This document shows, piece by piece, positions 684 through 24,458 of a DNA stretch of 26,282 nt. The position numbers were made by a program, and so were the translations under genes. The notes beneath the pieces are model-generated. The model was not told the DNA's origin, did no database searches, and saw nothing but the letters and a program-made list of their open reading frames with translations. Source of the stretch: a virus; the IMG/VR virus record IMGVR_UViG_3300038701_000620, positions 1 to 26,282 of that record. One strand, 5' to 3'. Within the stretch, counting starts at the first letter, position 1. Every line of letters begins with the position of its first letter.

Positions 684-718
684 ATCTCGGGGCGAGTTGC
701 CCCGTTGCATGGGTGGAG

Positions 719-751
719 ACCCCCGCTCGGTTCGCGCCGGGCGGGGGTTTT
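719..751 (+). terminator. Rho-independent terminator
   Basis: The arms ACCCCCGC (719-726) and GCGGGGGT (741-748) pair perfectly, with an inner CGG/CCG extension, and are followed by a short T run. It lies 36 bases after the membrane-protein stop. A smaller GGGGC/GCCCC hairpin precedes it at 689-703. Confidence 0.8.
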
Positions 752-3742: not shown

Positions 3743-3766
3743 AGGGGCCGGACGTCAATCAACAAG

Positions 3767-3794
3767 AAAAGGGGCGGGTTCGCCCCTTTTTTTT
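3767..3794 (+). terminator. Rho-independent terminator
   Basis: AAAAGGGGCG (3767-3776) and CGCCCCTTTT (3781-3790) form a 10-bp stem with a GGTT loop and a run of eight T. It ends the phosphoesterase transcript. The -35 of the capsid promoter begins 2 bases after the T run. Confidence 0.92.
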
Positions 3795-4985: not shown

Positions 4986-5016
4986 AAGGGGGCGGGGCGC
5001 AAAGTCCCGCCCCTTT
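4986..5016 (+). terminator. Rho-independent terminator after the capsid gene
   Basis: GGGGCGGG (4989-4996) and CCCGCCCC (5006-5013) form an 8-bp stem, followed by TTTCTATT. Confidence 0.85.
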
Positions 5017-5673: not shown

Positions 5674-5699
5674 AGCCGAATCGGCTTTCCGTAGAAAAG

Positions 5700-5730
5700 A
5701 AAGGGCGTCCTTCACGGGACGCCCTTTTTT
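5700..5730 (+). terminator. Rho-independent terminator
   Basis: AAAGGGCGTCC (5700-5710) and GGACGCCCTTT (5717-5727) form an 11-bp stem with a 6-base loop and a run of T to 5730. A smaller AAGCCGA/TCGGCTT hairpin precedes it just after the stop codon. Confidence 0.92.
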
Positions 5731-7100: not shown

Positions 7101-8048
7101 ATGCCTTCCCGATCCTCAGCCCTTGCAAGCTCGACCTCCCCCGCCAAGGGAACGACGTCACGCGATCAGCGTTCACCCCTTGGGGGAGTAGTCGCCGCCG
7201 ATTGGTTCACAATGATCGCCGACGCAAACCTTCTATTCGCCGGGGACGTTCGAGGCAAGGTCGGGGGTTCGACCGTGACCCTCGACGGGAACGGAGCCGC
7301 TTCAGTGATCGAGGACCTCTCGGGTCAAGGGAATGACGTCACGCACCGCAAAGGGGCCGGGACCCATAGCGAGAAGGCCCTTCTTCTCGGATCGATTCCC
7401 GATCAATACGTTTATGCGACCGGACTATCGGACGAGAAGCATTGGGGAATAAGGGACGACGAAATCGACACTTCCGCCCTAACCGAATGGCATATTTTCA
7501 CCGTCTTCTCGCTCGCCGGAACCCCGATCATTAAACCGGCGGACTCGTCCTCGGAATCGTCGAATCACTATCGATTCCCGAGTTCCTCGGGAACCGGGGG
7601 CCGACCGTCCCTCGGCTTCAGTTCGACGGGCGGACTCGGGTCGGGATCTTGGATCACGCAAGAAAACTCGGGAGGGGGAAGCTTGGTATCGCCGCCGTCC
7701 GTCAATATCGAAAGCCTGACCGGGCGAGCCGAGACCGACGCCGTCAATCGGGACGCCCTCGTCGAATGGCGACACGAAGGCGGGGGGAATCGTTCCGAGG
7801 TTTGGGTGAACGGTTACCTCGTCGAGTTCAACTCGTCCTCTGGAACCCCTGACGCGATGAATAATCTTCTTTGGGGGAAGCGGGACCTGAACCTTTCCGG
7901 GGGAGGGCAACGAATCAAAGCGATCGCGATCGGTCGCCCGGGCAAGTCCGGTCGCGACTTCACGACCGCAAACGCCGCGACGGTCCGCGCAGCCCTTCTC
8001 GCCGACTTCGGGATCGAGACTTGGGACGGATCGACTTATCCGTCTTGA
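7101..8048 (+). CDS. Lectin-like (concanavalin A/LamG-fold) head-region protein
   Basis: The frame is open upstream, but the ATG at 7101 follows the previous stop by 8 bases and avoids overlap. The 315-residue product contains IEDLSGQGNDVTHRKG (about residues 70-85), typical of concanavalin A-like or LamG carbohydrate-binding folds. Typical features continue with EWHIFTVFSLAGT, a Gly/Ser-rich loop region, and RSEVWVNGYLVEFNSSSGTP before a terminal DFGIETWDG helix. Such domains bind glycans. In the head module it may be a decoration protein that lets the capsid adhere to surfaces; a tail role is less likely from the gene order. No catalytic residues are evident. Confidence 0.65.
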   Translation: MPSRSSALASSTSPAKGTTSRDQRSPLGGVVAADWFTMIADANLLFAGDVRGKVGGSTVTLDGNGAASVIEDLSGQGNDVTHRKGAGTHSEKALLLGSIPDQYVYATGLSDEKHWGIRDDEIDTSALTEWHIFTVFSLAGTPIIKPADSSSESSNHYRFPSSSGTGGRPSLGFSSTGGLGSGSWITQENSGGGSLVSPPSVNIESLTGRAETDAVNRDALVEWRHEGGGNRSEVWVNGYLVEFNSSSGTPDAMNNLLWGKRDLNLSGGGQRIKAIAIGRPGKSGRDFTTANAATVRAALLADFGIETWDGSTYPS

Positions 8049-10341: not shown

Positions 10342-10382
10342 TCGACGAAGAGGTTCCCGGGGCTTATGACTTCCGGGAACCT
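10342..10382 (+). promoter_or_regulatory. Tail tube promoter with the -10 in a hairpin loop
   Basis: TCGACG (10342-10347) and TATGAC (10365-10370) are 17 bases apart. The -10 lies in the loop of a perfect 10-bp hairpin, AGGTTCCCGG (10351-10360) with CCGGGAACCT (10373-10382), followed by a T-rich stretch. The predicted transcript would begin inside the right arm, about 15-18 bases before the ATG at 10394. Confidence 0.5.
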
Positions 10383-10393
10383 TTCCTCGTTCT

Positions 10394-11575
10394 ATGTCTG
10401 AAGCTAATCTCGCCTCGCTCGCCTTTATCGCCGAATCGACCCTCGGGACGACTCCCGCAACGCCTGAACTGACCGCCCTTCGATTCACCGGGGAAGACCT
10501 CGGGACGAACAAGGACACGGTCGCAAGCGAAGAGATCCGGTCTGACCGTCAAGTTCCCTTCGTGACGAAAGTCGGTCTGAACCCGGGCGGGTCCTTCGAT
10601 TACGAGTTCAGCTATTCGCCGTTTCAACCGTTCATCGCGTCGGCGCTCGGGAATACTCTTCAGACCGTAGATATTGACGCCGTGACGGTCAGCTTCGACC
10701 ATACCGCGCAAACGATCACCGGGTCGTCTTCCGACTTCGACGACGTCCGCGTCGGCTCCCTGATCAACGTCGCGAACGCCGCGACCGCCGGGAACGACGG
10801 GCTTCACCGCGTCGTCGGAAAGAACGCCGACGGGTCGGTCCTCACTCTCGCCGCCGGATCCCTGACCGCGACCGACGCCGCCGACGTCGTCGATATCGAC
10901 GGCTTGAATATCACGAACGGAACGCTGAAGCCGTCCTTCACTATCGAGAAGGGAATCGTGAACCTGAACGGGGCCGACTTCTTTCAAACCTTCCTCGGGA
11001 TGGTCGTCGATACATGGTCGATCGATATCGAGTCGAAGTCGATCGTCACCGGGTCCTTCGAGTTCCTCGGAATGACCGCGCCCGCCGGGTCCGCCGACAC
11101 GATCGACAACGACGGAACCTATACCGACGCCTCGTCCGATCCCGTCATGAACGGGACCGGGAACGTCGGAACGATCGAGGTTGACGGCGTGACCGCGACC
11201 GAGAAGTTCAAGTCGATCTCGATCGAGGTCGCCGCGAATCTTCGGGGCAAGGACGCAATGGGGACCGAGGGCTTCTTCGATATCGGGACCGGGACGATCG
11301 AGGTCACCGGAACCTTCATGATTTACTTCCTCGACAACGACTTCCTCGACAAGATCCGAAATCACACTTCGATCGCCCTCGAATTCTATATCGAGGACGA
11401 CGACGGGAACCGGGTTTACTTCTATCTCCCGAACGTGAAGTTGAACCAAGGCGACCCTGTGATCGAGGGGATCAATACCGACGTAATGGTCGAGACCGAG
11501 TTTCAGGCGATCCGCGACGCGACGACCGGGATCACAATGTCGGTTGACTTCGTCCCGACCGCCTTGATCCCGTAA
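10394..11575 (+). CDS. Major tail tube protein
   Basis: The 393-residue product begins like phage tail tube proteins (ASLAFIAESTLGTTPATPEL, then TALRFTGEDLGTNKDTVASE and EIRSDRQ). A GSFDYEFSYSPFQPFIASAL segment follows, and the C-terminal half carries GTFMIYFLDNDFLDKIRNHT and the strand pair FYIEDDDGNRVYFYLPNVK. Subunits stack as hexameric rings to form the tube. At about residues 95-165 there is an inserted-looking beta module (RVGSLINVANAATAGNDGLH) that recurs in two other structural proteins here. The gene is in its own transcription unit, as expected for an abundant protein. Confidence 0.88.
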   Translation: MSEANLASLAFIAESTLGTTPATPELTALRFTGEDLGTNKDTVASEEIRSDRQVPFVTKVGLNPGGSFDYEFSYSPFQPFIASALGNTLQTVDIDAVTVSFDHTAQTITGSSSDFDDVRVGSLINVANAATAGNDGLHRVVGKNADGSVLTLAAGSLTATDAADVVDIDGLNITNGTLKPSFTIEKGIVNLNGADFFQTFLGMVVDTWSIDIESKSIVTGSFEFLGMTAPAGSADTIDNDGTYTDASSDPVMNGTGNVGTIEVDGVTATEKFKSISIEVAANLRGKDAMGTEGFFDIGTGTIEVTGTFMIYFLDNDFLDKIRNHTSIALEFYIEDDDGNRVYFYLPNVKLNQGDPVIEGINTDVMVETEFQAIRDATTGITMSVDFVPTALIP

Positions 11576-11593: not shown

Positions 11594-11630
11594 CCCCGGG
11601 CTTGACTTCTTCAGGCCCGGGGCTTTTCAT
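11594..11630 (+). promoter_or_regulatory. Terminator and leaderless promoter superimposed
   Basis: CCCCGGGC (11594-11601) and GCCCGGGG (11615-11622) form a terminator stem followed by CTTTT. The loop begins with the -35 TTGACT (11602-11607), the right arm is the promoter spacer, and the -10 TTTCAT (11625-11630) overlaps the T run. The -10 ends 8 bases before the ATG at 11639. Confidence 0.6.
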
Positions 11631-11638
11631 TGCCCGCG

Positions 11639-12037
11639 ATGAACCTGAACGAATACAAGACCGACGAAACGAAGAAGAAAGAAGGGATTTGGGTCGAGTT
11701 CGACGACGCCCGCTTCCTGATCCGCTCGACCGATACCTCGAAGTATCGCCGCGCCGTTCAAGCCGCCGCCAAGAAGCGCAACCCCGCCGCCGTCCGAAAG
11801 GATATCGAGACGCAAACCGCCCTCGGGATCGAGGCGGTCGCCGAGGGGATCCTGATCGATTGGGAGGGCGTCGAGGACGACGGGACCCCGGTCGAATGCA
11901 ACCGCGAGAACAAGATCGCCGTCTTGACTCAAGTCCCCGCCCTTCGTGATCACTTGGCGACCGAAGCCGGGGACATGGCGAACTTCTCAGCCGAGGGCGT
12001 GTCGGCGGACGCTGACGACTTTCGCGAAGGCGATTGA
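11639..12037 (+). CDS. Tail assembly chaperone, zero-frame product (lambda gpG-like position)
   Basis: This 132-residue product (ATG at 11639) contains EGIWVEFDDARFLIRSTDTS and helical segments ending with ADADDFREGD. An in-frame TTG three codons upstream is less likely than the ATG, which has the leaderless promoter spacing. Lying between the tail tube and tape measure genes, with an overlapping second frame downstream, it fits the tail chaperone that wraps the tape measure during assembly. As in most siphophages, a fraction of ribosomes probably shift frame near its end to make a longer G-T-like protein. Confidence 0.8.
   Translation: MNLNEYKTDETKKKEGIWVEFDDARFLIRSTDTSKYRRAVQAAAKKRNPAAVRKDIETQTALGIEAVAEGILIDWEGVEDDGTPVECNRENKIAVLTQVPALRDHLATEAGDMANFSAEGVSADADDFREGD
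12017..12025 (+). other. Probable +1 programmed frameshift site
   Basis: In the zero frame the sequence reads GAC TTT CGC just before the chaperone stop (TGA at 12035-12037). The downstream frame is +1. Slippage of tRNA-Phe from TTT to TTC would join DDF to AKAIDWDIRFGDK. TTT CG resembles the known +1 site of influenza PA-X. The sequence does not prove the exact site. Confidence 0.5.
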
Positions 12038-12395
12038 TTGGGATATTCGATTCGGCGACAAGCTCGAATACTTCGAGACCCTGATTGATTGGGACGAGGG
12101 GAAGGTTCCCGGGCCGATCACCGACGAGCCCGATCTTCCGCCTCACCTTCAGCCGATCAGGGAGGCTTTTTGGGTCATGTCCGCCCGCCGGGGATTCGGC
12201 GGGGGACAAGTCCCGGTCCCGAACCCTCTCTCGGTCTCGGACGTCGTCGCGTTTGCGGGGGCGTTCGGGTTCGACCCGGTCCATTTTTTGCGCGTGACTT
12301 CTAAGGCCGACGAGGTTTATCTTCTCGAAGCCGCCCGCCGCGCCGAGAAAGCCATGAAGAAAGCTCGGTCTAAGAACCCAAAGCCTCGCCGATAA
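12024..12395 (+). CDS. Tail assembly chaperone, frameshifted C-terminal part (gpT-like)
   Basis: The frame is open from 11946 to the TAA at 12393-12395, with no convincing independent start. The protein-like part begins around AKAIDWDIRFGDKLEYFETL and ends with a helical, basic tail (EKAMKKARSKNPKPRR). Joined to the upstream ORF it would give a fusion of about 251 residues. In siphophages this longer chaperone recruits tail tube subunits to the tape measure. It is immediately followed by the tape measure gene (TAA then ATG), the standard order. Confidence 0.7.
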   Translation, partial: AKAIDWDIRFGDKLEYFETLIDWDEGKVPGPITDEPDLPPHLQPIREAFWVMSARRGFGGGQVPVPNPLSVSDVVAFAGAFGFDPVHFLRVTSKADEVYLLEAARRAEKAMKKARSKNPKPRR

Positions 12396-16037: not shown

Positions 16038-17053
16038 TGCCAGTAACGAACCTAAAAGCCTTTCAGGATCTCGTCGCGAGCCACGACCTCCCGCACACTT
16101 ACGACCCGAAGCGCCCGACCGCCCTCGGGCCGGATAACTACGGGGCGAGCCAAACCGACCCATACTTCGAGAATTGGTTCTTCGAGATCGACGGAACGAC
16201 CGTCACGATCGGACGTCAAGACGGGCTCGGGTTCCCGACGACGACCGTCTCGTCGCTTTACGACTCAGCTTTCGAGACCGAGCATTTGTCGGGGACCTTC
16301 GACGACGTCGCGAAGGAAGTTCTAGCTTGGGATCTCGGGGTTGGGGCGAGCGGGGTCAAGGAAGCTCGCGTCGGGGCCTTCTTCGGGGGCGTCGAGGATT
16401 GGCTGACGTTCTCGGGATACAACCCGGTTTGCGTCAATACTTGGCCGATTGACGGCGACGCCGCGACCGCCGGGGACGCCGAGGTCGGGGTCTTCTATCT
16501 CCGAGAAGGCTTCCCGTATATTTTCTTCAGGACCAAGGGCGATAATTTCGCGACCGAATACGTTGCCCTCCGATCGCCCTCGGCCCCGTTCGCTCTTCAC
16601 TCCCTCGCCCTCAATGGGGCCTACCTCGAAATCCGAGGGATTGACGTCGGTCACCGAAAGACGGCTTGGCGGTCCCTTTACTCGCCCGCGATCCCGCCCG
16701 ACCGGGGTCTCGGAATCCTCGAACTCGTCGCCGGAAGCTTCGAATCGATTTATATCCTAGAGGACGTCGGTCAGGACGAAGGCGAAGGGACACTCGAACT
16801 CGTCGCCGGTTCCTTCGAGTCAACCGTGATCGCGACCGACGCTGGGATCGACGAAGGCGAAGGGACACTCGAACTCGTCGCCGGGGAGCTTCTGAATCTT
16901 CTCGTCCTGACCGACGCCGGTCAGGACGACGGAGTCGGAACCTTGACTCTCGCCGACGGGGCGTTTACCCTCACCGGCAAGCCGACCGAGACAACGTCCG
17001 ACGACGGAGTCGGAACCCTCGCCCTGATCGAAGGAACCTTTGAAATCCCGTAA
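16037..17053 (+). CDS. Tail protein with C-terminal 25-residue repeats
   Basis: The 338-residue product has an N-terminal domain of about 220 residues with many aromatic and beta-type segments (PYFENWFFEIDGTTVTIGRQ; EGFPYIFFRTKGDNFATEYV). A C-terminal array of five tandem repeats follows, beginning GLGILELVAG, GEGTLELVAG, GEGTLELVAG, GVGTLTLADG and GVGTLALIEG; the last is partial. No enzymatic motif is visible. In the distal tail module it is probably a baseplate or fibre-associated protein whose repeats form a stalk. The ATG overlaps the previous TAA (TAATG). Confidence 0.6.
   Translation: MPVTNLKAFQDLVASHDLPHTYDPKRPTALGPDNYGASQTDPYFENWFFEIDGTTVTIGRQDGLGFPTTTVSSLYDSAFETEHLSGTFDDVAKEVLAWDLGVGASGVKEARVGAFFGGVEDWLTFSGYNPVCVNTWPIDGDAATAGDAEVGVFYLREGFPYIFFRTKGDNFATEYVALRSPSAPFALHSLALNGAYLEIRGIDVGHRKTAWRSLYSPAIPPDRGLGILELVAGSFESIYILEDVGQDEGEGTLELVAGSFESTVIATDAGIDEGEGTLELVAGELLNLLVLTDAGQDDGVGTLTLADGAFTLTGKPTETTSDDGVGTLALIEGTFEIP
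16706..17050 (+). repeat. Tandem 75-bp coding repeats (4.6 units)
   Basis: Units run 16706-16780, 16781-16855, 16856-16930, 16931-17005 and 17006-17050 (partial). Each encodes a 25-residue unit beginning G-x-G-x-L-x-L and ending in two acidic residues. Units 2 and 3 start with nearly the same DNA (GAAGGGACACTCGAACTCG), so recent duplication is likely. Confidence 0.85.
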
Positions 17054-19418: not shown

Positions 19419-20054
19419 ATGAAATCAAAGCCGATACCTGATCAAGAAGGATACTCAGCCGACGAGAACGGCGAGATTTGGAGTCACCGGGGGACCGAGT
19501 CGTCGAAGATGATTTGCATAAACGAGGATCTTCAGATTTACCAAAAGATAACGAAGAGAACTCCGAAGACCGTGAAGCTTCGCGGGGCAGTGAACGGGGC
19601 GGGTTATCGCCAATATGAGATCAGGGGGAAACTCTTCACCGGACACCGCCTAGTCTTCGCCGCCTTTCACGGCGACCCGGGACGTCAACACGTTCACCAC
19701 AAAGACGAGGACAAGCTGAACAATAGGCCGGAAAATCTTGAATTGAGAACGGCGAGCCGACACTCAAAAGATCACCGCCAAGAAGACCGAGTCGAGGGGA
19801 CTTGCGAGATTTGCGGGAAACCATTCGACCGCCCCCGGGCAAGGAAGGAAGGGAACAAGTATTGCTCCGACGCTTGCAACTCAACCGCCTTCCGACGCCG
19901 TCACGGTCTTTCGACCGATCCGGTCGAATCGCCTTGCCTCGTTTGCGGCGAGACGGTCGTGAACACCGGCAAGAAGGGTCGGAAGAAGTATTGCTCGCGG
20001 GCCTGTAAGTCACTCGGTCGGAGCCCGAAGAACCGGAAATTCGGCGAAGGATGA
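19419..20054 (+). CDS. HNH homing endonuclease with two zinc motifs
   Basis: The 211-residue product begins with a NUMOD4-like segment (IPDQEGYSADENGEIWSHRG). An LVFAAFHGDPGRQHVHHKDE region follows, and then the HNH core HHKDEDKLNNRPENLE (histidines at about residues 93-94). Two zinc-knuckle-type motifs come after it: CEICGKPF with YCSDAC, and CLVCGETV with YCSRAC. This is the layout of phage-encoded homing endonucleases that cut at or near their own insertion site. It is freestanding, with its own promoter, between the hub gene and the next accessory gene, and shares a conserved DNA block with the HNH gene at 23955. Confidence 0.85.
   Translation: MKSKPIPDQEGYSADENGEIWSHRGTESSKMICINEDLQIYQKITKRTPKTVKLRGAVNGAGYRQYEIRGKLFTGHRLVFAAFHGDPGRQHVHHKDEDKLNNRPENLELRTASRHSKDHRQEDRVEGTCEICGKPFDRPRARKEGNKYCSDACNSTAFRRRHGLSTDPVESPCLVCGETVVNTGKKGRKKYCSRACKSLGRSPKNRKFGEG
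19647..19724 (+). repeat. HNH core DNA repeat, copy A
   Basis: This block encodes RLVFAAFHG through HHKDEDKLNN and is highly similar to 24117-24197, which is 3 bases longer. More diverged versions occur in the HNH genes at 21199 and 23441. Confidence 0.8.
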
Positions 20055-20668: not shown

Positions 20669-20699
20669 GACCCTCGCCCTTCACCGGGCGGGGGTCTTT
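20669..20699 (+). terminator. Rho-independent terminator
   Basis: GACCCTCGCCC (20669-20679) pairs with GGGCGGGGGTC (20686-20696) with one wobble, and is followed by TTTCTTT. Confidence 0.85.
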
Positions 20700-20779
20700 C
20701 TTTGGAAAAGAACAAAAAAGTTTCATTTAGGGGTTGGCGAGACCGCCGGTAATGGTATTATTCGGGCGTTATGGCAAAC
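20684..20779 (+). repeat. Terminator-promoter-start cassette, copy 2
   Basis: Matches 737-826 from the terminator right arm to the sixth base after the ATG, including AAAGTTTCATTTAGGGG, AATGGT, and GGCGTTATG followed by CAAAC. Confidence 0.75.
20734..20761 (+). promoter_or_regulatory. Promoter of the helicase N-terminal gene (leaderless type)
   Basis: TTGGCG (20734-20739) and TATTAT (20756-20761) are 16 bases apart. The -10 ends 9 bases before the ATG at 20771. Confidence 0.7.
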
Positions 20780-21166
20780 GATACTCAGACACTAAAGATC
20801 AGCGAGCTTTGCAAATGGTCACGCGGGAAGCGGGTCGAGACCCGTCGCGGTCCCCGAATGCTTCGCGAAGGAAAACCCGGCGAGGACTTTTGGAACGCAT
20901 GGCGCGAAGCCAAGGACACGCTAAAAGCCGCCGGGATCTCCCTCGGGAAGGACAAGGGCGAATGGGTCGCAAAATGGTGGGAGCCGGTCGAACTGACCGA
21001 GAAGCAGAAAGCCGAGAAGGAAGCCGAAGAGAAGCGCCGGGCCGAGTCGCTCGAACTCTCGAAGGCGACCGACGCCGACGTCGATCTTCCCTCTCCCGAG
21101 GGCCTCGAATATCTCCCCTATCAGAAGGCCGGGATCAATTACGCCCTTGCGATATTCGGAGATTGA
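20771..21166 (+). CDS. SNF2-family helicase, N-terminal part (split gene)
   Basis: The 131-residue product is the N-terminal arm of phage SNF2/SMARCAL1-like helicases. It has a segment with FWNAWREAKDTLKAAGISLG and WVAKWWEPVELTEKQKAE, a charged helical linker, the ATDADVDLPSPEGLEYLPYQ segment and then the Q motif YLPYQKAGINYALA. In intact relatives the Walker A block (GVLIGDEMGLGKT) comes within a few residues of this point. Here the reading frame stops at TGA 21164-21166, right after IFGD. The -35 of the HNH gene overlaps this stop, so the break coincides with the insertion. The product could pair with the C-terminal part in trans. Confidence 0.8.
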   Translation: MANDTQTLKISELCKWSRGKRVETRRGPRMLREGKPGEDFWNAWREAKDTLKAAGISLGKDKGEWVAKWWEPVELTEKQKAEKEAEEKRRAESLELSKATDADVDLPSPEGLEYLPYQKAGINYALAIFGD

Positions 21167-21192
21167 CGGAACGGGCTTTAGACCCATATCGT
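21163..21192 (+). promoter_or_regulatory. Promoter of the inserted HNH gene (leaderless type)
   Basis: TTGACG (21163-21168) covers the helicase stop codon. TATCGT (21187-21192) follows after 18 bases and ends 6 bases before the ATG at 21199. The promoter appears to have arrived with the endonuclease gene. Confidence 0.6.
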
Positions 21193-21198
21193 CACTTC

Positions 21199-21597
21199 AT
21201 GCCGCGATGGACAAAGAAAAGACCGACGATCGTTTGCGCGGTTTGCGAAAAGGAATTCACCGTCAGACCCTCCCGGGCTGGCAAGGCGAAATATTGCGAT
21301 TATCGTTGTCACCAAGTCGGCGAAGGCCGGAAGGGCGGGGTAGTGCGGGGCGAGCAACTGAAGAAGCAAAGTCAGGGGAAGGCTTACACGAAAACTCGGG
21401 GAAGGCACACTCACCGGGTCGTCGCCGAAGAGAAGATCGGTCGACCCCTTCAGCCCGGAGAGGTCGTCCATCATAGGGACGAGGACAAGCTGAATAATGA
21501 CCCCGACAATTTGGAGGTCCTCGAATCTCAATCAGATCACGTAAAGATTCACGTCCCCGAAATGCTCAAGAAACGCCTTGAAAAGAGGGGTTACTAA
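21199..21597 (+). CDS. HNH homing endonuclease inserted in the helicase gene
   Basis: The 132-residue product has a zinc-binding pair (Cys13 and Cys16 in CAVC; Cys33 and Cys37 in YCDYRC). A linker with GRHTHRVVAEEKIGRPLQPG follows, and then the HNH core VVHHRDEDKLNNDPDNLEVL (His91, His92, Asn99-Asn100). The ATG at 21199 is preferred over the longer open frame because of the promoter spacing. Homing endonucleases typically insert in conserved gene regions, and this one lies just before the DNA for the helicase P-loop. No complete group I intron could be recognised around it; the remaining non-coding DNA is short. Confidence 0.87.
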   Translation: MPRWTKKRPTIVCAVCEKEFTVRPSRAGKAKYCDYRCHQVGEGRKGGVVRGEQLKKQSQGKAYTKTRGRHTHRVVAEEKIGRPLQPGEVVHHRDEDKLNNDPDNLEVLESQSDHVKIHVPEMLKKRLEKRGY

Positions 21598-21599
21598 TA

Positions 21600-21665
21600 A
21601 GAACGGAAAAGTTTCGAAAAGTAATTGACCCGTCTCGGGAAAATGATATTATCAGAACCGTTATG
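21600..21665 (+). repeat. Promoter cassette, diverged copy 3
   Basis: GAACGGAAAAGTTTC is followed by TTGACC, a TATTAT -10 and CGTTATG. This follows the order and spacing of the cassettes at 737 and 20684 but lacks the ATTTAGGGG block and the terminator. Confidence 0.55.
21625..21652 (+). promoter_or_regulatory. Promoter of the helicase C-terminal gene (leaderless type)
   Basis: TTGACC (21625-21630) and TATTAT (21647-21652) are 16 bases apart, ending 10 bases before the ATG at 21663. Of the three related copies it has the best -35/-10 pair. Confidence 0.72.
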
Positions 21666-23444
21666 AACGACATGCACACTTCACAAAAAGGGCCGAAGGA
21701 GGCGGCTTCCCCATCTCGCGGCGTATTAATCGGCGACGAGATGGGGCTTTGACTAGGCAAAACCATTCAAGCGATCGGGATCTACAACGCGGTTCCGTCG
21801 ATCAAGAAAGTCCTGATCATTTGCCCCGCCTCTCTTCGTCTCAACTGGAAAAAAGAATGGGCGAAATGGTCCGTCCGCAAAAAAGATTCTGCCGTCGTGA
21901 ACGGTGGAGGAAAGACCGCTTGGCCCGAAAAGGCTGAAGTTGTCATCATTAACTATGACGTCGCCGCAAAGCACAAAGCGAAGCTCGACTCGGTTGAGTG
22001 GGATCTCGCGATTCTAGACGAAGCTCATTATCTAAAGAACCCGAAAGCTGCGAGAACGAAGGCGCTTTTCGGAGCGAAGAAGTCGAAAAACACGAAGACC
22101 GGAGCAGAGGTTCCGGCGATCCCCGCAATCCGCGCCCGCCGCAAGGTTCTCTTGACCGGAACCCCGATCGCGAACCGCCCGGTCGAACTCTTCCCGATCA
22201 TTCAATTCATCGATCCCGAGGGCCTCGGGAAGGACTTCTTCAAATACGCGAAACGCTATTGTGACGCGAAGCGGGGGTCCTTCGGTTGGGACTTCACCGG
22301 TTCCTCGAACCTCGACGAGCTTCAGACCGAGCTTCGCGCCCGGTTCATGGTCCGCCGCCTGAAGGCCGACGTCCTGAAGGACCTCCCCGCCAAGCGCCGC
22401 CAAGTGATCTCGATCCCCGCCGACAAGGGGAGCGCCGTCACCGCCGAGCTTGACGCCTTCCGTAATCATGAAGAGACCCTCGACAACCTCGCCGCATATT
22501 TGGAAATGGCCAAATGCGAAGAGGACGACGACGCGATCGAGCGGGCCGAGGACGAGTATCGCTCGAAGCGCCGCCTCGTCATTCAGGAAATGACCCGCCT
22601 TCGGAAGGAAGTCGCCCTCGAAAAGGTTGACAAGGCGATCCCCCTGATCGAAGCCGCCCTCGAAGAGGGTCCTCTGATCCTCTTCGTTCATCACAAGGAC
22701 GTCGTCGAGAAGATCATGAGGGCCTTCCCGGGCCGGTCAGGCAAGATCACGGGCGACGTGAAAATGAGCGACCGCGAGCAAGTCGTCGAAGACTTCCAAG
22801 CCGGGCGGATCGACCTCTTCGTCGGGAATATCAAAGCCGCCGGGGTTGGCCTGACCCTGACCGCCGCCTCGCGGGTTATGTTCCTTGAACTCGATTGGGT
22901 TCCCGGCAACCTCTCGCAAGCCGAAGACCGGGCTCACCGGATCGGGCAAACCGACTCGGTCCTCGTTCAGCATATCGTTCTTGAAGGCTCCCTTGACGAG
23001 ATTATGGCCGAGAAGCTCGTCTCGAAGCAAGACGTGATCGACCGCGCCCTCGACCGGGAAATGACTCCCGAAGAGAAGGCGAAGGCCGAGGAAGAGAAAG
23101 CCGCCGAGGTCGAGGTCACCGTTCAGAAGATCAAGCGAGTCACGATCAAGAAGGACGAGGTCGCCAAGCGAGCCGAGAAGCTGAAGCCCGAGCAAATCGA
23201 AGCCGCCCATTTGGGAATGCGCCGCCTCGCCGGAATGTGCGACGGAGCGCAAACGCTCGACGGTATGGGGTTCTCGGGTTGCGACGTTCGGATCGGTCAC
23301 TCGTTCGCCGGTCAGGACCGCCTGACCCCGCGTCAAGCCGTCCTCGCGATCAAGCTCGTCCGAAAGTATCGCCGCCAACTCGGGGACGACCTCGTCGATG
23401 CCGCGACCGGCAAGTCGAAGACCGTCGAAAGGGGGGGCGAGTGA
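21663..23444 (+). CDS. SNF2-family helicase, C-terminal part with an in-frame TGA in Walker A
   Basis: The ATG at 21663 opens a frame that reads 16 new residues, then SPSRGVLIGDEMGL, then TGA (21750-21752). The same frame goes on as LGKTIQAIGIYNAV and stays open to the TGA at 23442-23444. The ATPase core is complete: Walker A (split by the stop), ICPASLRLNW, LDEAHYLKNPKA (motif II, DEAH at 22017), LLTGTPIANRPVELFP (III), AAGVGLTLTAASRVMFLELD (V) and QAEDRAHRIGQ (VI). A further C-terminal domain follows. Without recoding, translation could only restart at GTG 21897, downstream of Walker A, giving a protein with no P-loop. SNF2 proteins are ATP-driven DNA translocases or annealing helicases. 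Either the TGA is bypassed or this part is inactive. The intact motifs argue for selection until recently. Confidence 0.8.
21744..21758 (+). other. Candidate translational hop site inside Walker A
   Basis: The codons are GGG CTT TGA CTA GGC. The stop lies between two Leu codons of the same CTN family. A hop of peptidyl-tRNA-Leu from CTT (21747-21749) to CTA (21753-21755) would skip 6 bases and give GLGKT with no extra residue. Plain readthrough would insert two residues into the P-loop. TGA CTA G is also a known leaky stop context in eukaryotic systems. None of this is proven from sequence. Confidence 0.45.
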
Positions 23445-23851
23445 ATTGGAAGCCGACCGAGGTCGCGGGGCTCGAAGCCTCCGACCTCGGCGAGATCCGA
23501 GGCCCGAAGGGCGTCCTGAAGGGATCGAACTCGAACGGATATCGAATGATCCGATTCAAGGGTCGCCGGTTCTACGCTCACCGCCTCGTCTTCTCCGCAT
23601 GGCACGGTAACCCCGCCGGGCTCGAAGTTCATCACAAGGACGACGACCGGTCGAACAATCGCCCGGGGAACCTCGAAGGGCTGACGAAGGGCGACCACAA
23701 GCGCCTTCACCTTCTGAAGAACCCTCTCCCTCTCGGGGGCGGGGGACGCCGCGCCCTCGACCTCGAAGCCGCCCGGGACGACAAGGGGCGAATCATCAAG
23801 GATTCAGCTTATTATCGCCGCCGCTACGCCCGCCGAAAACTTTCGTCATAA
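23441..23851 (+). CDS. HNH endonuclease with NUMOD4 motif
   Basis: The GTG at 23441 overlaps the helicase stop (GTGA), giving 136 residues that begin exactly with a NUMOD4 motif, WKPTEVAGLEASDLGEIRG. A segment like RFYAHRLVFSAWHGNPAGLE follows, and the HNH core is VHHKDDDRSNNRPGNLEGL (His64, His65, Asn72, Asn73). The C-terminal tail is basic. The longer open frame upstream overlaps the helicase and is rejected. The overlapping start suggests it is translated together with the helicase. No zinc motif is present, unlike the other three HNH genes. Confidence 0.83.
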   Translation: MNWKPTEVAGLEASDLGEIRGPKGVLKGSNSNGYRMIRFKGRRFYAHRLVFSAWHGNPAGLEVHHKDDDRSNNRPGNLEGLTKGDHKRLHLLKNPLPLGGGGRRALDLEAARDDKGRIIKDSAYYRRRYARRKLSS

Positions 23852-23954: not shown

Positions 23955-24458
23955 ATGCAAAAAGAACGCTGGCGAGCGATCCCGGGCTTCGAGCCATTCG
24001 AAGCTTCGAACCTCGGGAGAATCAGGGGGCCGCGAGGGATCATGAAGGGAACGGTCGCGGGAGGATACCGCCGGGTTTGTCCGAATCGATTCGGTCAGCG
24101 TCACCTTCGGGTTCAACGCCTCGTCTTCGCCGCCTTTCACGGTCCGATCCCCGAAGGCTTTCACGTTCATCACAAAGACGAGGACAAGCTGAACAATCGA
24201 CCGGGGAACCTCGAAGCCCTTTCTCGACCTGATCACGCCGTCGTTCACGCCCTCCCGGGCGACCCGGGCGACCGGAAACGGAAACGGGAGCGGGACGCCT
24301 ATCGCAAGTCGAAGGGGCTTCGCGAGATCCGCCGGGAATGCGATTGCGGCGAATCATTCCTGACATTCAAGAAGTCGCAAATCTATTGTTCGGAGAAATG
24401 CCGCAAAAGAGCCGAGGACCGCCGCCGGTCGCGAGCGTTGACCTCGGGGCTTGTTTAG
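23955..24458 (+). CDS. HNH homing endonuclease with NUMOD4 and zinc motif
   Basis: The 167-residue product opens with a NUMOD4 motif (ERWRAIPGFEPFEASNLGRI). It continues with RLVFAAFHGPIPEGFHVHHK and the HNH core HHKDEDKLNNRPGNLEAL (His72, His73). A basic helix follows, and a terminal zinc motif (CDCGESF with YCSEKC). It is the most typical of the four HNH genes. Its 3' end overlaps the promoter of the NlpC/P60 gene, whose -35 (24438) lies inside it, so the two genes are tightly fitted at the downstream edge of the island. Confidence 0.87.
   Translation: MQKERWRAIPGFEPFEASNLGRIRGPRGIMKGTVAGGYRRVCPNRFGQRHLRVQRLVFAAFHGPIPEGFHVHHKDEDKLNNRPGNLEALSRPDHAVVHALPGDPGDRKRKRERDAYRKSKGLREIRRECDCGESFLTFKKSQIYCSEKCRKRAEDRRRSRALTSGLV
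24117..24197 (+). repeat. HNH core DNA repeat, copy B
   Basis: Highly similar to 19647-19724, including CACAAAGACGAGGACAAGCT and GTCTTCGCCGCCTTTCACGG, separated by 4.5 kb. Confidence 0.8.

Follow-up and report, generated by a model that had tools for sequence, protein, structure and literature searches.

Intrinsic terminators directly behind major structural genes have been described in LUZ100, where, according to an ONT-cappable-seq study, a local promoter precedes and a strong terminator immediately follows the major capsid gene (PMC10134795). Terminators and promoters may also stand close together: a survey places most terminators of E. coli and B. subtilis within ~1 kb of a start site and the start sites closest to T7, T3 and SP6 terminators at 14 to 1742 bp (PMC11347151), and a further study reports that RNA polymerase can slide after termination and restart at nearby promoters (PMC6978380). 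Leaderless bacterial genes of the TA-led type carry TANNNT ~12 bp before the start and no Shine-Dalgarno site (PMC3160421). A phrase search of the open-access literature found no natural nested terminator-promoter in a phage, and such a case may be in print elsewhere.

The junction studied here, where the tail assembly chaperone gene of an uncultured phage follows the tail tube gene, resembles the terminators after structural genes in its GC-rich stem, short loop and T run past the stop codon (PMC10134795), but it follows the tail tube gene and has a -35-like hexamer in its upper stem. With the TA-led genes it shares a -10-like signal ~12 bp ahead of the start codon, and ATG 11639 likewise has no Shine-Dalgarno site (PMC3160421), whereas the bases at 11625-11630 are TTTCAT and depart from TANNNT, to which other starts of the phage do conform. 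In contrast to the known terminator-promoter pairs, the two signals share bases, and termination and the proposed start would be ~10 nt apart.

The window, that is, the whole stretch of DNA analysed, is the 26,282-base viral record IMGVR_UViG_3300038701_000620. On its plus strand, the tail tube gene (10394..11575), located upstream of the element, matches phrog_290 'minor tail protein' (E 5.4e-68), and the counterpart of its product in phage relatives is annotated as tail tube or major tail protein. After a gap of 63 bases follows the chaperone gene (11639..12037, plus strand; phrog_313, E 1.7e-26), whose start at ATG 11639-11641 is backed by alignment with two relatives. The chaperone frames overlap within 11639-12395, the first stopping at 12037 and the second being open from 11946 to 12395, a layout as for the programmed frameshift of tail chaperones which by frame arithmetic would be +1 or -2. 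Another gene of the tail region contains a tandem repeat of 75-base units (16688-16959). Viral contig scans with the tail tube and chaperone proteins, their alignments, capsid and neck proteins brought up just two near relatives: L015, with 76% identity in the tail tube (it is the complete contig on which L006 lies, as do L012 and L028), and L007, with 60% (on one contig with L013 and L029). More distant loci were obtained as well, of which L002-L005 were viewed by eye at the upstream gap and L014 was left out. No further relatives of the junction were obtained from viral contigs with the 14822 gene as query or from scans of genome contigs, and an Rfam search gave no match at gathering scores.

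A hairpin at 11594..11622 (plus strand) begins 18 nt past the tail tube stop and consists of a 12 bp stem (11594-11605 / 11611-11622), nine pairs of which are G-C, and a loop of 5 nt (11606-11610). Folded alone it reaches -24.0 kcal/mol (z -5.2 versus shuffles), and it is followed directly by the U-rich tail CTTTTCATT (11623..11631, plus strand) with its T run at 11624-11627. Terminator-like hairpins are found at the same junction in both relatives despite sequence change: in L015 the hairpin CCCCGGACTTGACTCGCGTCGAGTTCGGGG is followed by TTTTTCTTTT, and in L007 a different, strong hairpin by TTTTGTTT. The earlier note had proposed that the element ends the tail tube transcript. Since a strong hairpin and T run stand right after the tail tube stop and terminator-like hairpins are present in both relatives, this terminator half is well supported, its RNA 3' ends being predicted from sequence. 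Further strong hairpins with T tails lie in other gaps of the window (718-749, 1199-1228, 2148-2179, 3766-3791, 4988-5014, 5699-5728 and 20669-20696).

The note had further placed a promoter inside this hairpin, with TTGACT opening the loop and a -10 overlapping the T run. The candidate -35, TTGACT (11602..11607, plus strand), does match TTGACA at five of six positions, and the hairpin, the T run and the position of the ATG are as described. However, TTGA is paired, forming the top four base pairs of the stem (one is G-U), and just CT belongs to the loop. The candidate -10, TTTCAT (11625..11630, plus strand), is located 17 nt past the -35, within the 16-18 of sigma70-type promoters, and 8 nt before the ATG, resulting in a distance of 37 nt from TTGACT to ATG 11639. 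It does overlap the T run, but its match is poor. A sigma70-type -10 would have an A at position 2 and a T at position 6, and the E. coli consensus needs the A at its second position. TTTCAT lacks this A, as does its L015 counterpart TTTTCT, and in neither genome is an A positioned where it could serve the candidate -10. The overlap itself may be the cause, as the terminator needs T where a -10 needs TA. Because of the missing A, the strict promoter scan passed over the site. A lax count, requiring 9 or more matches over the 12 hexamer positions, gives 11 plus-strand sites for the window, this one included, compared to 3.7 ± 2.1 in 40 shuffles, and a position-independent matrix scan ranked it 30 of 1627 plus-strand sites, with 12 minus-strand sites scoring equally high. 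With the strict scan negative and a matrix rank of 30, the general scan was rejected as support for the site.

Promoter-like sites of one class, however, recur at gene starts throughout this phage. About nine starts show the order -35, 16-17 nt, -10, 5-10 nt, start codon, and at 818, 5771, 8080, 19419, 20771, 21663, 23955 and GTG 24473 the -35 reads T[TC]G[AG]C. Examples are ATG 5771 (TCGACA-N17-TACGGT-N7) and ATG 19419 (TTGACC-N16-TAAAGT-N6), and, outside the training set, ATG 8080 (TTGACC-N17-TAGCGT-N6), ATG 23955 (TTGACC-N17-TATCGG-N5) and GTG 24473 (TTGACC-N17-TATTGG-N6). The last is probably the start of the NlpC/P60 gene (24438-24475 region), rather than 24338. The L015 orthologue of 5771 keeps TCGACA-N17-TACGTT-N6-ATG, although the arms of the preceding hairpin have diverged. 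Two of the starts lie in a 70-base repeat (757-826 / 20710-20779, 77% identical) with the plan A-rich box, TTGACT or TTGGCG, 16 nt, TGTTTT or TATTAT, 9 nt, ATG, and a third site of this plan (21604-21665) precedes ATG 21663 with its -35 at 21625 (TTGACC-N16-TATTAT-N10-ATG). A single further copy of the 21-base core of the repeat, AAAAGTTTCATTTAGGGGTTG, was found in IMG/VR, in the AT-rich contig L027 (224 kb). Many records of Streptococcus phages match the A-rich box at 24 of 25 bases (E 0.05). Among the 14 start-linked sites other than 11639 (818, 1292, 2184, 3940, 5771, 8080, 9407, 10394, 19419, 20099, 20771, 21663, 23955 and 24473), the -10 begins with TA in 12, the exceptions being 818 (TGTTTT) and 20099 (TTAGGT). 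Several gap genes, among them 5053, 6370 and 10055, have no promoter of this class.

Four HNH-type ORFs (19419-20054, 21198-21597, 23500-23851 and 23955-24458) have a 57-base direct repeat region, D2, in common; two of the four were confirmed as HNH_3 by Pfam. An SNF2-type helicase gene (20771-23444) is interrupted, its N-terminal part ending at 21166, followed by an HNH-like ORF and the remainder from 21897, and an in-frame TGA lies in its GDEMGL..GKT motif near 21748.

For the tail tube gene itself, the candidate promoter is located at 10342..10370 (plus strand; TCGACG-N17-TATGAC, in L015 TCGACG-N17-TATCTC), with the T6-CTCGACG and TTAT blocks conserved. The stretch from this candidate to the start (10342-10393) overlaps an inverted repeat at 10346-10389 with TTAT in its loop, and L015 keeps the inverted repeat and TTAT, though the arms differ. 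At five places in the window, just 4-7 nt separate a hairpin stem from the -35 behind it (stem end 1228, -35 at 1236; 3791, 3796; 5728, 5735; 10334, 10342; 23914, 23921), the 10334 stem having 5 bp and the distances for 5728, 10334 and 23914 being read by eye. The element at 11594 would be in line with an overall plan of gene boundaries that puts putative terminators next to putative promoters, the -35 at 11602 being shifted into the stem. A second nested-looking case lies at 2143-2186, where TTGACG stands directly before a 14-bp hairpin (2148-2179) ending 4 nt from ATG 2184. Its -10, TAGGAC, is found at 17 nt, inside the hairpin, with 12 nt to the ATG; the site fails strict tests of leaderless geometry and ranks 6th in the general scan.

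Position relative to the start was evaluated against control ATGs. Controls were all ATGs outside a hand-made gene list (n = 325), some of which may be real starts, and the training sites and the promoter model were chosen after inspecting the gaps. Matrix 1 was derived from seven sites with leave-one-out and matrices 2-4 from three other training sets, one being the textbook consensus alone; 11639 was excluded from all of them. Fourteen gap genes, a set that includes 21663 (found via its promoter) and omits 8080 (gap 31), 23955 and 24473, outscored control ATGs at leaderless geometry, with p = 0.0001 for 185 plus-strand and p = 0.0002 for 142 minus-strand controls. ATG 11639 scores 9 of 12, a value reached by two of the 185 plus-strand and none of the 142 minus-strand controls, and with the four matrices it was equalled or beaten by 0, 2, 1 and 0 of the 325 controls; taken at their distance from the start, its -35 and -10 are better than those of control ATGs, as in the leaderless class. 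The corresponding counts for the L015 orthologue were 0, 2, 2 and 1 of 325. Shuffles of the 63-base gap of 11639 reached its score in 17, 5 and 2 of 3000 cases with matrices 2-4. Of the 46 plus-strand copies of TTGAC, 6 lie in gaps (hypergeometric p = 0.035), an enrichment that is weak alone and depends on a gene list set by hand from ORFs.

ATG 11639 has no Shine-Dalgarno site. Its best pairing, -5.0 kcal/mol, derives from the GGGG of the hairpin, which ends 16 nt upstream of the ATG, at the outer limit of the region searched (from -22). In this phage, 23 of 29 starts pair more weakly than -5.9 kcal/mol, and genes without upstream gaps likewise have no Shine-Dalgarno sites. As their absence is the norm here, it was rejected as proof of a leaderless message, and a leaderless chaperone message would follow only if the promoter works.

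Comparison of the junction in L015 demonstrated that TTGACT is kept (at 7882), within the hairpin and at nearly equal distance to the ATG, the distance from stem to ATG being 15 or 16 nt according to how an extra A-T pair is counted. The TTTTC.TT of the terminator tail is conserved, all stem positions that differ retain pairing, and the CT of the loop is conserved as well, although pairing does not constrain it. Hairpin, tail, -35 match and geometry are thus all present in both phages. Nevertheless, conservation of TTGACT was rejected as proof of a promoter, as it covers two genomes only, pairing is kept and the hairpin explains much of it. Against a nested promoter, TTGACT is retained in only this one relative. 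The hairpin of L007 contains no TTGACT; a separate promoter-like site past it (GTGACA-N17-TAGAAG-N6-ATG 4562) is only suggestive of a promoter, since 21 of 325 controls equalled or beat it once it was removed from the training set.

With lax hairpin criteria, 14 junction gaps were examined, those of the window, L015, L007 and eleven phage records. At least one hairpin with a T-containing tail was detected in ten (the window, L015, L007, R5C, R26L, Bhz59, BREN6, BL57, Colossus and phiEap-2), the T tails being poor in R5C, R26L, BL57 and Colossus, and none in Pan1, Mwe-JY26, Xp15 and Azospirillum Cd. In three further phages (QDWS359, PaMx74 and DoCa5) tail tube and chaperone genes abut with no gap. 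According to this survey, a predicted terminator at the tail tube/chaperone junction is common but not universal, and, in the phages examined, TTGACT is no part of it outside L015.

Taken together, we lean slightly towards a terminator in which a weak leaderless promoter is nested, the 45 bases at 11594-11638 forming a compact terminator-promoter junction. Junctions of this kind recur in the phage, the present one being a compact variant, and we infer that termination, initiation and leaderless translation would all be directed by it. The interpretation given in the note stands in part. Read from sequence, the promoter half is plausible, since it agrees with the recurring class in the 37 nt from -35 to ATG, in its spacer (16-17 nt) and in having no Shine-Dalgarno site, and TTGACT is present in L015. 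It is nevertheless weak and not settled, owing to the missing -10 A in either genome, the L007 hairpin without TTGACT and the scan rank of 30. As RNA, the hairpin and U run would stop most tail tube transcripts at ~11627-11631. As DNA, a host RNA polymerase of housekeeping type would read TTGACT in the upper hairpin as the -35, the right hairpin arm as spacer and the T run as a weak -10. A new transcript would begin at ~11637-11639, and the chaperone message would have no leader or almost none. Such an arrangement probably serves stoichiometry, with tail tube high and chaperone and tape measure low, and no antitermination step.

The main rival, quite possible though we would not bet on it, is a plain terminator. 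The hairpin would trim a strong tail tube transcript, chaperone and tape measure would be expressed by read-through with translation initiating without a Shine-Dalgarno site on the U-rich stretch past the hairpin, and TTGACT would be mere stem sequence shared with L015 by descent. The terminator-like hairpins found at this place in L015 and L007, the TTGAC-free terminator of L007 and the hairpins with U-containing tails in the more distant phages R5C, R26L, Bhz59, BREN6 and phiEap-2, with no TTGA in the junction stem-loop (in phiEap-2 TTGA occurs in one unrelated, far-downstream hairpin), are all consistent with this, as is the lack of a proper -10 in the window and L015; nor is a leaderless start needed, because gapless genes manage without Shine-Dalgarno sites too. 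What a terminator alone leaves to coincidence is that -35, spacer and ATG distance agree with a site class recurring in the phage, and that the unpaired CT of the loop is conserved.

RNA processing, in which the hairpin protects the 3' end and cleavage past the stem yields a chaperone message with a short leader, appears improbable: it requires no promoter, and stem-loops without a T run were seen by eye at the junction in Pan1, BL57 and Colossus, but the T runs of the window, L015 and L007 are not required by processing. Even less credible is an operator bound by a phage regulator sitting on the promoter, for although the tail tube promoter candidate (10346-10389, and the matching place in L015) and the 2143 site are overlapped by inverted repeats too, their centres lie at differing distances from the putative starts, their sequences differ, and the T run at 11624 is explained by a terminator only.

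A bolder form of the favoured reading, the nested terminator-promoter, strikes us as rather doubtful. Here the shared element would be under selection: the polymerase that ends the tail tube RNA would stay over the -35 and restart ~10 nt on, which would tie the output of chaperone and tape measure to that of the tail tube, and the same compact punctuation, fused or nested, would mark many gene boundaries, with leaderless messages throughout.

If the nested promoter is real, 45 bases would do three jobs, the stop of one transcript, the start of the next and the start of leaderless translation, and recycling of RNA polymerase between an adjoining terminator and promoter could be studied at a natural junction. 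A compact late region would in this way set the ratio of tail tube to chaperone without antitermination. Even without a working nested promoter, this would be a phage with recurrent leaderless-type promoters.
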